A stretch of 36,379 bases of DNA from positions 1-36,379 of the forward strand of contig JACPIJ010000069.1 of the NCBI GenBank assembly GCA_016188145.1, written 5' to 3'. The notes below the pieces were generated by a model. That model saw only the letters and a list, made by a program, of their open reading frames with translations. It had not been told where the DNA came from and searched no databases. The stretch's first letter is position 1; each line of letters begins with the position of its first letter. The stretch is from Candidatus Woesearchaeota archaeon. Its GTDB lineage: Archaea > Nanobdellota > Nanobdellia > Woesearchaeales > UBA10216. Positions 3,013 to 30,724 of this stretch are shown in pieces. Made by a program: the position numbers and the translations under genes.

Positions 3013-3404
3013 AATTTGATTTTAAAAAAGAGCAAAGCAGACTTTTAGGCCCTGTTTTAAGGCCCGTAGCAAGGATAACGCTGGTGAATCAGGAAATTGA
3101 GGTGCCTGAACACCTTTATGTTGATTCTGGAGCGGACTTAACACTAATCCCGAAGTCTGTTGGCGATTTATTAGGCTTTAAGGTCAGCCAAGGCGATTCT
3201 ATCGAAGAAATAAAGGGTGTTGGGGAAAGGGGCATTCCCGTAGTAATTAAAAAAGTAGAAATGAGAATATGCAAAAAAGCGTTCGAAGCGAGAGTGGCAT
3301 GGGCACTTATAGAGGAAGTGCCTTTGCTGCTGGGAAGAGCAGACGTATTTGCCCTGTTCAACGTCTGCTTCAAGAAAAACACGAAGACAGTATTTGAAGA
3401 TTAA
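3003..3404 (+). CDS. Retropepsin-like aspartyl protease family protein
   Basis: LYVDSGADLTLIPKSVGDLLG catalytic D-S/T-G motif, later LLLGRADVF; ATG at 3003 overlaps the upstream stop. Confidence 0.75.
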   Translation: MEIEFDFKKEQSRLLGPVLRPVARITLVNQEIEVPEHLYVDSGADLTLIPKSVGDLLGFKVSQGDSIEEIKGVGERGIPVVIKKVEMRICKKAFEARVAWALIEEVPLLLGRADVFALFNVCFKKNTKTVFED

Positions 3405-3508
3405 AACGCGGGCTTTGGTTTCCAAGGTTGTGAAGCCTGAACAGCTGCCAAGATTTTGTCAGGGCAGGTGACAATTATTACTACTTTAAAATAGATATCA
3501 ATCAAAAA

Positions 3509-28698: not shown

Positions 28699-29631
28699 TC
28701 ATTTGCCCTGCAGCATAATCAGGTCCTTGGCCGTCAGCTTCTTCCCGCTCTTCAGCTTTTCGGTGAGTTCCTGCTCCTTCTTCTCTTCTGCCTCTTTTTT
28801 CCTGGCAGCAGCCATTGCGTCAAGCCTTTCCTTAACATCGGAAAGCTCATGCAGCGTTTGGCCAAGCGAAGAATTTGCTGCGGCGTAATCCTCCTTTGCC
28901 TTTTCCAGCTGCTCAACAAGGAGCTTTTTGCGCTGCCGCAGTTCCCTGAGCTGCGGAATCAGCTTCACCATCTCCTCATGAAGCCTCTGGCTCTCGGCAG
29001 CGTGCTGCTGAAGCTCCTTGTGGAAGGCGTTTGACTGCCTCCTTATATCCGAGAATTTTGCAAACAGCTCCCTGTGCGATTTTGACGCCTCGGAAAACTG
29101 CTTGACAGACTCCAGCTGCCTTTTCTTTTCATTGATAACCTTCATGAGCTGCTTCTCTTTCTCAAACGGTATGACCTCGGTTTCGATTTTGAGCTCTATA
29201 GAAGCAATCTCGGAAATGAGCTGGCCCACGGATTTCTTTTTGGGAACAGTTTTTCCGTGGCTCCTGTGAGCCAATTCTTCTGCTGCCTCTTCTTCAGCCT
29301 CAACTGCCTTTTTCAGCTCAGCACTGATAAGCTTAAGGGACTCATTGGCTTCCTGCCTCTTCGCTTTCAGTTCCCTGACTATTGCTGTCTCCTTATCACG
29401 CGCTTCCCTGAGCTCCCTTACCTTAATGATGGTTGACTTGAATTTCGGATTAATCTCGCGCAGCTGCCTGATACAGGAATCCCTGCTGCTGCCGAGTGCC
29501 GAAATCCTGGACTTCAGCTCGCGGGCAAGCCTGCTGTCTTTCGCAAGCACGGCTGAAAGCGGCTCATTACCTATCCTTCCACTGCTGCTGCCATCTGCTT
29601 CTGCTGGAGAAATCATTAACTCGCTTGGCAT
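28699..29631 (-). CDS. Archaeal coiled-coil protein (COG1340-like)
   Basis: Heptad-rich, charged throughout; typical of the conserved archaeal coiled-coil family. Confidence 0.7.
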   Translation of the reverse strand: MPSELMISPAEADGSSSGRIGNEPLSAVLAKDSRLARELKSRISALGSSRDSCIRQLREINPKFKSTIIKVRELREARDKETAIVRELKAKRQEANESLKLISAELKKAVEAEEEAAEELAHRSHGKTVPKKKSVGQLISEIASIELKIETEVIPFEKEKQLMKVINEKKRQLESVKQFSEASKSHRELFAKFSDIRRQSNAFHKELQQHAAESQRLHEEMVKLIPQLRELRQRKKLLVEQLEKAKEDYAAANSSLGQTLHELSDVKERLDAMAAARKKEAEEKKEQELTEKLKSGKKLTAKDLIMLQGK

Positions 29632-29714
29632 TATCCCACTATAAAAATCTTATTGGAGTGCCGCAACATAATCGAGAGAGCAACCTTCAATGAATAACAA
29701 ATTAAGTGAATGCA

Positions 29715-29799
29715 CGCCGCGGACGGGAGTTGAACCCGTAAGGCCTGGAGGGCCACCTACTTATCAGGTAGGCGCGTTTACCAATTCCGCTACCGCGGC
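29715..29799 (-). tRNA. Class II tRNA, tRNA-Leu-like body with anticodon GAU (Ile)
   Basis: Acceptor GCCGCGG/CCGCGGC, D-arm GCG-GAATTGGTAAA-CGC, anticodon arm CCTAC-CTGATAA-GTAGG, variable arm TGGCCCTCCAGGCCTT, T-arm ACGGG-TTCAACT-CCCGT, discriminator G, no encoded CCA. Confidence 0.88.
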
Positions 29800-30022
29800 G
29801 GCAAATTCTCTATTTTCTTAAATCTTAATGAAGCTATGCCCTGATTTTTTGAAAATTATTTTCTTAAAGAAGAAATATTCTGACTGTTGCCGCAAATTAT
29901 GCGAGAAAAAGGCAATTTTTTGAAAAACTTACGGTTTGCCTGAAATATTTTTGCGAGGAGTTTTCAAAAGTGCCAGCAAAAAACGAAAGGTATATTAAGG
30001 AGGGAACCAACACTTAAGATAA

Positions 30023-30081
30023 AGACCTGGAGGGTTGCCTGCTGTTGAGGCAGGGACGTTTGCCGGTTTCGTGAACCCGGC
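30023..30081 (-). pseudogene. tRNA-Leu(CAA)-like fragment lacking T-arm and 3' acceptor
   Basis: GCCGGGTTCACGAAACCGGCAAACGTCCCTGCCTCAACAGCAGGCAACCCTCCAGGTCT; ungapped alignment to tRNA 29741-29799 with about 40/59 identities by hand count and compensatory stem changes. Confidence 0.6.
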
Positions 30082-30087
30082 TTTTTT
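30062..30087 (+). terminator. Intrinsic-terminator-like hairpin plus T-tract
   Basis: gccggtt-tcgtg-aacccggc followed by ttttttt. Confidence 0.5.
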
Positions 30088-30091
30088 TCTT

Positions 30092-30724
30092 TTACCGTCT
30101 AGTTCCTGCTTCAAGAATAGCGTTACTGGCCGTGTAAAAAATGAGGTTACGCTCTCGCTCTGTCTGCTTCAGAGCTTTGGACGCATAAGTGCTGGCCGCT
30201 GCTGCAACAAACTCGTCAATAGCCTGCGGTGTCAGTTCTGTTCTGCGGGCTGCGCGTTTACCAAACCCTTGGAAAGTGCCAGTTGCTACTCCTATAAACG
30301 GTGGCACTTGCGCCTTCGCAATCATTTCCAACTGCTCGGCTTCTGACCTGCGTTCCTCAAAATATTCGCCCCTACTATTATAACCGCTGTCTTTAACTGT
30401 AAGTTCTGCAATTCCCGAAATGTGAGCTGCAAGCACAAGCCCTTTTGGATATTGCGAGTGATGCTGGTTTGGTTTAATGTAACCAACTAGGAATGCGTCA
30501 TAGTAAACATTATTCAACTGCCCGACAATTTGCACGAGGACGTGTGACTTCACCACCCGCGAAAGGTAGCCCTCTTTTGTCAAAACTGCCGTGTGCCAGC
30601 CATCAACTGAAGCATCAACTATGTCAACTAATGTGTTAGATGGCAGGTTTGCAAACCGGATAAGCTGTTCAGAAGGTATCCACAGCTTGCAAGCGCTTGT
30701 GCCTGTTGTGCCAGTCATCCTCAA
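30092..30724 (-). CDS. Hypothetical protein
   Basis: 210-aa ORF directly downstream of P1/L12 gene, same strand. Confidence 0.65.
   Translation of the reverse strand: MRMTGTTGTSACKLWIPSEQLIRFANLPSNTLVDIVDASVDGWHTAVLTKEGYLSRVVKSHVLVQIVGQLNNVYYDAFLVGYIKPNQHHSQYPKGLVLAAHISGIAELTVKDSGYNSRGEYFEERRSEAEQLEMIAKAQVPPFIGVATGTFQGFGKRAARRTELTPQAIDEFVAAAASTYASKALKQTERERNLIFYTASNAILEAGTRR

Follow-up and report, generated by a model that had tools for sequence, protein, structure and literature searches.

The DNA stretch analysed here (the window) comprises 36,379 nucleotides of contig JACPIJ010000069.1 from the Candidatus Woesearchaeota assembly GCA_016188145.1. This source genome (G000) consists of 1.18 Mb in 81 contigs and is 84.6% complete; all genomes compared were metagenome-assembled and incomplete. 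ARAGORN, run on the whole window, found exactly one tRNA, at 29714-29800 on the minus strand with the anticodon GAT, and the Rfam tRNA family matched 29715-29799 on the same strand with 63 bits. A covariance model built from the first six homologues (R1) scored this tRNA at 106.9 bits. The gene is flanked by a DUF7121 gene (28699-29631, minus strand) on one side and by genes for L10 and L1 on the other; L1, L10, and EF-2 are of the archaeal type. About 225 nt upstream of the tRNA, on the opposite strand, there is a gene for a small RNA of about 70 nt (29983-30093, plus strand); this gene, which the first-pass annotation had overlooked, is the most informative part of the locus. The features of both genes are listed in Table 1.

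TABLE 1 Features of the tRNA gene and of the divergent small-RNA gene; positions are those of the window
Feature	Position	Strand	Basis
Serine-type class II tRNA gene, anticodon GAU (29763-29765), G73	29715-29799	-	ARAGORN, Rfam, R1, serine-type body
V-arm segment of the tRNA, CCCUCCAGG, antisense target	29744-29752	-	Exact complement at 30026-30034
D-arm segment of the tRNA, CGGAAUUGGUAAACG, second target	29775-29789	-	Complementary to 30057-30071 with G-U pairs
BRE/TATA-like promoter of the divergent small-RNA gene, CGAAAGGTATATTAAG	29983-29999	+	Conserved in the 7 closest copies
Predicted antisense small RNA	30022-30093	+	Start inferred from the distance to the TATA box, end from the T-run
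Anti-V-arm segment, CCTGGAGGG, near the predicted small-RNA 5' end	30026-30034	+	Complement of the V-arm
Anti-D-arm segment, running into the terminal hairpin	30057-30071	+	Complementarity to the D-arm
GC-rich terminal hairpin, GCCGGTTTCGTGAACCCGGC, followed by a T-run	30062-30093	+	Sequence, conservation in sister copies, minimum-energy fold

The tRNA has a 5-bp anticodon stem (CCTAC/GTAGG), the loop CTGATAA, a variable region of 16 nt that contains a 4-bp stem, and G73, while CCA is not encoded; its branch consists of a 7-bp acceptor stem and a 5-bp T-stem. The first-pass annotation had described this stem, loop, discriminator, and long variable region, all of which are confirmed in the sequence, and ARAGORN, Rfam, and the comparison of tRNA bodies bear out its reading of a class II tRNA with a GAU anticodon at odds with the body. 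It had also proposed an 8-bp acceptor stem formed by pairing of C-1 with G73. C at position -1 is restricted to the subfamily of the window tRNA, with T or A in most other members, so this pairing is not a conserved feature, and an 8-bp acceptor, or a Sec-like 8/5 branch, was rejected. An alternative register of the anticodon arm (TACCT/AGGTG with UAA in the loop) was rejected because it has no U33 and fails across homologues. A close GAU homologue containing a T-loop intron is present in G006, a second species of the same genus; therefore, the window tRNA is not a one-off sequencing or assembly error.

The body of the tRNA is of the serine type. With the anticodon arm and base 73 left out, its identity was 0.79 to Woesearchaeal tRNA-Ser versus 0.68 to tRNA-Leu, and in the same comparison tRNA-Ser was closer than tRNA-Leu for 67/67 bodies of related class II tRNAs with non-serine anticodons (off-code tRNAs). 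In full-length comparisons, the best Woesearchaeal tRNA-Ser reached an identity of 0.765 and the best Woesearchaeal tRNA-Leu one of 0.651; of the E. coli tRNA-Leu, leuX gave 0.565 and leuZ 0.60. The acceptor GCCGCGG/CCGCGGC-G73 is common to the window tRNA and canonical tRNA-Ser, and the best R1 matches beyond the family were almost all ordinary tRNA-Ser, many of them with the GCCGCGG acceptor and G73. G73, and not the A73 of tRNA-Leu, occurs in the window copy and in essentially all family members. The long variable arm, G73, and the clade-typical acceptor and core of tRNA-Ser are thus present, while a serine anticodon (NGA or GCU) is absent, as are the short variable region and A73 of class I tRNA-Ile. 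The leucine-type chimera of the first-pass annotation was rejected since the body is nearer to tRNA-Ser in both the part-length and the full-length comparisons, and resembles bacterial tRNA-Leu in the D-arm only.

Serine identity is determined by the long variable arm and G73, independently of the anticodon. Breitschopf and Gross reportedly found in 1994 that the change of A73 to G73 alone makes human tRNA-Leu a serine acceptor. The archaeal LeuRS of Haloferax is barred by G73 (PMC9976931). In each of the six genomes searched, one SerRS gene exceeded the family cut-off; it is of the bacterial/eukaryal type. Given the identity elements, the block to LeuRS, and the single SerRS per genome, the window tRNA is probably charged with serine. 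Leucine, serine, and isoleucine had all been named earlier as possible charges; serine is retained, while the leucine-type body behind that proposal is not. The sole full SerRS gene of G000 (L190, C39:10569-11837) contains an in-frame TAG ('FCRP*DSWK'), which is either an assembly error or real; the gene is uninterrupted in G006 and G007.

Ordinary tRNAs are present alongside. A class I tRNA-Ile(GAU) with A73 and two introns was found in G000 (C74, near 3297-3440), and orthologues exist in all eight same-genus genomes (G000 and seven others), which answers the question of whether such a gene exists elsewhere. It was detected with a model and a D-arm pattern, since the introns and a GTTC D-stem hide it from strict searches. 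The tRNA-Ile(UAU), tRNA-Phe(GAA), and tRNA-Arg(CCU) of ordinary type were also found. The UAU anticodon is carried by a tRNA-Ile body with two introns in G000 (L186, C4), G007 (L178, C15), and G003 (L226, C31); the usual archaeal counterpart is of the CAU/agmatidine type. In an alignment of EF-2, AUC codons stood opposite isoleucine in 12/16 cases and AUU codons in 14/25, never opposite serine, and CUG, CUC, and CUU were almost always opposite hydrophobic residues. Codon reassignment was rejected because EF-2 codons hold their standard meaning, as was replacement of tRNA-Ile(GAU) by an off-code tRNA because the normal gene is present in all eight genomes. Therefore, the off-code tRNAs are extra.

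The R1 model was run on 8 same-genus, 11 same-family, and 353 order genomes; the census numbers come from these searches and from retrieved sequence stretches, and their coverage is fairly good within the genus and incomplete in the family beyond it. Six of the eight same-genus genomes contained 6-12 intact off-code class II tRNAs each: eight in G000 (GAU, GAA, GAG, AAG, CAA, and three CAG) and 6-12 in each of G001 and G004-G007. In G002, just 67% complete, and G003, the class II hits were normal tRNA-Ser and tRNA-Leu only. The best hits suggest that the off-code family is absent elsewhere in the order. Its non-serine anticodons are CAG, GAA, GAU, AAG, CCU, GAG, UAU, CAA, and CUC. The features needed for decoding are retained, with U33 in 62/65 and A37 in 58/65 members, and the positions of the anticodon stem are paired in 95%-100% across the family, with 29 different 5' arms. 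A T-loop intron was found in 51/67 off-code tRNAs versus 3/43 tRNA-Ser; owing to such introns, unusually frequent in this genus (e.g., L016, L021, L046, and L150), many of its tRNA genes are missed by standard tRNA searches. One class II tRNA with A73 (L007, G000:C72:4031-4117) has the leucine anticodon AAG, that is, a wobble A34 in an archaeon.

Anticodons turn over at orthologous sites. Upstream of lonB, the off-code tRNA has CAG in G001, GAA in G005, and GAU in G006, while the site is empty in G002 and G003; beside an EamA-type transporter gene, CAG was found in G005 and CUC in G007. Upstream of the DUF7121 gene, GAU in G000 corresponds to CAG in G004 and in the public record JACPBX010000004.1. 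A leucine anticodon at this locus in relatives had been named in advance as a refuting condition that would point to a point mutation or an assembly error; it does occur, but it is neither of the two and is a case of anticodon turnover across the whole G73 family. Several syntenic off-code copies are kept across species, and truncated and fused copies exist as well. Upstream of lonB in G000, a broken fusion (L164, C51:462-589) combines the 5' part of an antisense element with the 3' part of a tRNA, consistent with a deletion between two homologous segments. The LonB of G001 (L024, G001:C26) has an intein. In G000, G004, and G007, the top LonB-like hits (L273-L275) seem to be broken close to the N-terminus, possibly by a further intein. 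The leader and trailer of off-code tRNAs paired with a mean energy of -4.7 kcal/mol versus -3.0 kcal/mol for swapped flanks, and complementary stretches of about 7-11 bp with compensating differences lie just outside the acceptor stem in L057, L128, L044, L028, and L041; the pairing is real in some subfamilies and is not the main signal.

Alignment of upstream regions revealed a conserved block about 200-300 nt upstream of the seven nearest tRNA copies. On the strand opposite to that of the tRNA, this block contains a BRE/TATA element, followed after about 25 nt by an anti-V-arm segment, an anti-D-arm segment running into a GC hairpin, and a T-run. A weak R1 match in the window (29984-30081, minus strand, 27.5 bits) is this antisense element read in the tRNA sense. 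The promoter, the T-run, and the divergent orientation led us to reject a split tRNA or a T-loop intron as an explanation of this element at about 30.0 kb. Generic scans of this locus flagged neither the terminal hairpin as a terminator nor the antisense element as a repeat, and the small RNA's own fold is not unusually stable. Sister copies also show good conservation of the ~185 nt separating the two RNA genes (29800-29985), with GGCATAGCTTCATTAAGAT upstream of the tRNA as an example, and additional control sites may lie there. All eight intact off-code tRNAs of G000 have an antisense element upstream, and almost all members of the family lie next to one. In one case (L120) the antisense segment is located downstream of the tRNA, and some family members (e.g., L139, L140, and L109) have no clear antisense partner in the flank examined. 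An orphan antisense gene (L184/L017, G000:C18:18828-18926) has no tRNA alongside in the stretch read.

The V-arm and the matching upstream segment vary together: CCCTCCAGG in the window, CCAAAGGG in L022, CCCCGAAGG in L023, CTTCACAGGTC in L024, ACCCACAAGTC in L025, and TCTCCAAGGCC in L042; such co-variation was also found in other subfamilies. In the fixed interval from -250 to -150, with pairs unselected for matches, the longest exact V-arm match averaged 8.81 nt for cognate versus 4.87 nt for non-cognate pairs, and matches of at least 9 nt occurred in 36/59 cognate pairs versus 0.47% of the non-cognate ones, with 0/34 among canonical tRNA-Ser. The D-arm match in this interval was weaker than that of the V-arm, still significant, and the anticodon arm gave no cognate signal there. 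In a second arrangement (class B), the interval from -75 to -15 matches the anticodon arm, with matches of at least 9 nt in 10/67 versus 0.7%, and the antisense segment spans the partner's own anticodon (GAG, GAU, GAA, or AAG) in 10/11 copies shown. A TATA-like box, a motif picked post hoc from sequences already inspected, precedes the antisense segment in 41/41 pairs with a located V-arm match versus 0/35 in the other orientation, at a spacing of 21-31 nt (once 10) from the anti-V segment. A T-run follows the antisense segment in 25/28 cases versus 12/41 in the other orientation. Among 35 pairs pre-selected for a V-arm match, the duplex energy averaged -64 kcal/mol for cognate versus -46 kcal/mol for non-cognate partners, and the cognate ranked first in 31/35; cognate matching in these pairs involves the V-arm and the D-arm only, and not the anticodon arm, T-arm, or acceptor. 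Differences between the small RNA and the tRNA were more often transitions preserving G-U pairs (83) than transitions that break pairs (29), an excess that depends on the proposed strand of small-RNA transcription. The p-values are optimistic because related copies are not independent. A 9-nt match at a single locus is weak, and the case for the pair is comparative; across the copies compared, the tRNA and its cognate antisense RNA gene very probably form a real pair.

We propose that the interval 29715-30093 represents a single copy of a module made of two RNAs, in which a mis-coding seryl-tRNA is restrained by an antisense RNA in a toxin-antitoxin-like manner, and we assign this reading a probability of roughly 0.5. 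The first RNA, a serine-type tRNA with a non-serine anticodon, would be charged by the cell's single SerRS, which is blind to the anticodon; the GAU form would then insert serine at isoleucine AUC and AUU codons, and other family members at leucine, phenylalanine, arginine, or glutamate codons. The second, a divergent antisense RNA of about 70 nt, would pair with the D-arm and with the V-arm needed by SerRS, and thereby hinder SerRS binding, charging, or folding of its own tRNA, while a class B antisense RNA lying over the anticodon loop would stop decoding. Upon failure of the antisense RNA, the tRNA would become harmful, as in a selfish or abortive-infection device. Expression, serylation, neutralization, and toxicity of the module are predicted from sequence. 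That the small RNA controls the tRNA appears reasonably likely, while the toxin-antitoxin role is put forward tentatively. The cis-encoded cognate antisense RNAs, many copies, empty sites, remnants, and orphan L184 resemble toxin-antitoxin biology. A search of viral contigs with two exact patterns showed no spread of the module. Nematode nev-tRNAs exist in a mature, mischargeable form, but no mistranslation by them could be detected (PMC4300185), so the toxicity of off-code tRNAs cannot be assumed.

The syntenic copies maintained between species, together with the retained decoding features, would also fit a regulated and beneficial role, in which stressed cells profit from serine misincorporation and the antisense RNAs serve as ordinary regulators, with no addiction or suicide. 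Two same-genus genomes have no off-code tRNAs found, and the fast anticodon turnover, empty sites, and remnants better fit a selfish module, which makes such regulated mistranslation unlikely. Even less probable is a non-translational pair, in which a tRNA-like effector, sponge, or aminoacyl donor is kept at a level set by the antisense RNA: nev-tRNAs leave no proteome trace (PMC4300185) and some allo-tRNAs are inactive in translation (PMC7609411), but U33, A37, and the 7-nt loop would drift were decoding irrelevant. Truncated and fused copies do occur, as expected of functionless debris of duplicated tRNA-Ser genes and inverted fragments; the cognate-specific V-arm matches, G-U polarity, fixed promoter spacing (41/41), and intact stems make this origin very improbable. 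About equally improbable, or slightly more so, is a C/D or H/ACA guide for tRNA modification or processing: the length and the 9-14 nt complementarity are within the guide range, but no Rfam guide family exceeded the threshold, and the window small RNA has a T-run at its end and no C (RUGAUGA), D (CUGA), or ACA boxes. A working isoleucine tRNA for AUC and AUU, with a class II body that IleRS nonetheless accepts, is largely refuted, although GAU is an IleRS determinant, by the class I tRNA-Ile(GAU) with A73 in G000 and all relatives and by the leucine, phenylalanine, or glutamate anticodons of sister copies at orthologous sites.

If the proposed module is real, a toxin can take the form of a tRNA gene, with a plain antisense RNA as the antidote, which would be a new means of attacking or policing translation, would account for off-code class II tRNAs, and would provide a ready source of anticodon turnover relevant to genetic-code change. 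Owing to the matches to the V-arm and the anticodon, the idea lends itself to direct tests with synthetic RNAs. Our literature search found no earlier description of a multi-copy antisense RNA family dedicated to tRNAs; to our knowledge, such a family is undescribed even if not toxic. The module might represent a new all-RNA toxin-antitoxin class, with about eight modules in a small archaeal genome, in which a serine-charged tRNA rewrites leucine, isoleucine, phenylalanine, arginine, or glutamate codons as serine and a cognate antisense RNA as the antitoxin masks the SerRS-binding arm or the anticodon.

In CTG-clade yeasts, the CUG-decoding tRNA-Ser(CAG) is a serine tRNA with a leucine anticodon, and the code itself is changed; here, on the contrary, EF-2 codons are standard and anticodons differ between species. 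Among toxin-antitoxin systems, SdsR/RyeA belongs to type VIII (RNA-RNA). The type VIII system CreTA (PMC8501985) likewise has RNA partners, and CreT too hits a tRNA-related step of translation in archaea. CreT is a mini-ORF RNA repressed via CRISPR Cascade, whereas the module proposed here would have a tRNA as its toxin and a plain antisense RNA as its antitoxin. The bacterial allo-tRNAs (Mukai et al. 2017, reviewed in PMC7609411) share the class II structure, serine identity elements, and diverse non-serine anticodons, and a toxin-antitoxin link has been merely guessed for some of them. The acceptor branch of allo-tRNAs comprises 12 bp (8/4 or 9/3), while the Woesearchaeal off-code tRNAs belong to DPANN archaea, have the ordinary 7/5 branch, often contain a T-loop intron, and are accompanied by a cognate antisense RNA. 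We know of no antisense partner of the nematode nev-tRNAs. The likeness to nev-tRNAs pointed out in the first-pass annotation is upheld, since these are also class II tRNAs with mismatched anticodons, namely those of class I amino acids including isoleucine (PMC4300185), but they are leucylated and eukaryotic, unlike the serine-type off-code tRNAs of archaea.
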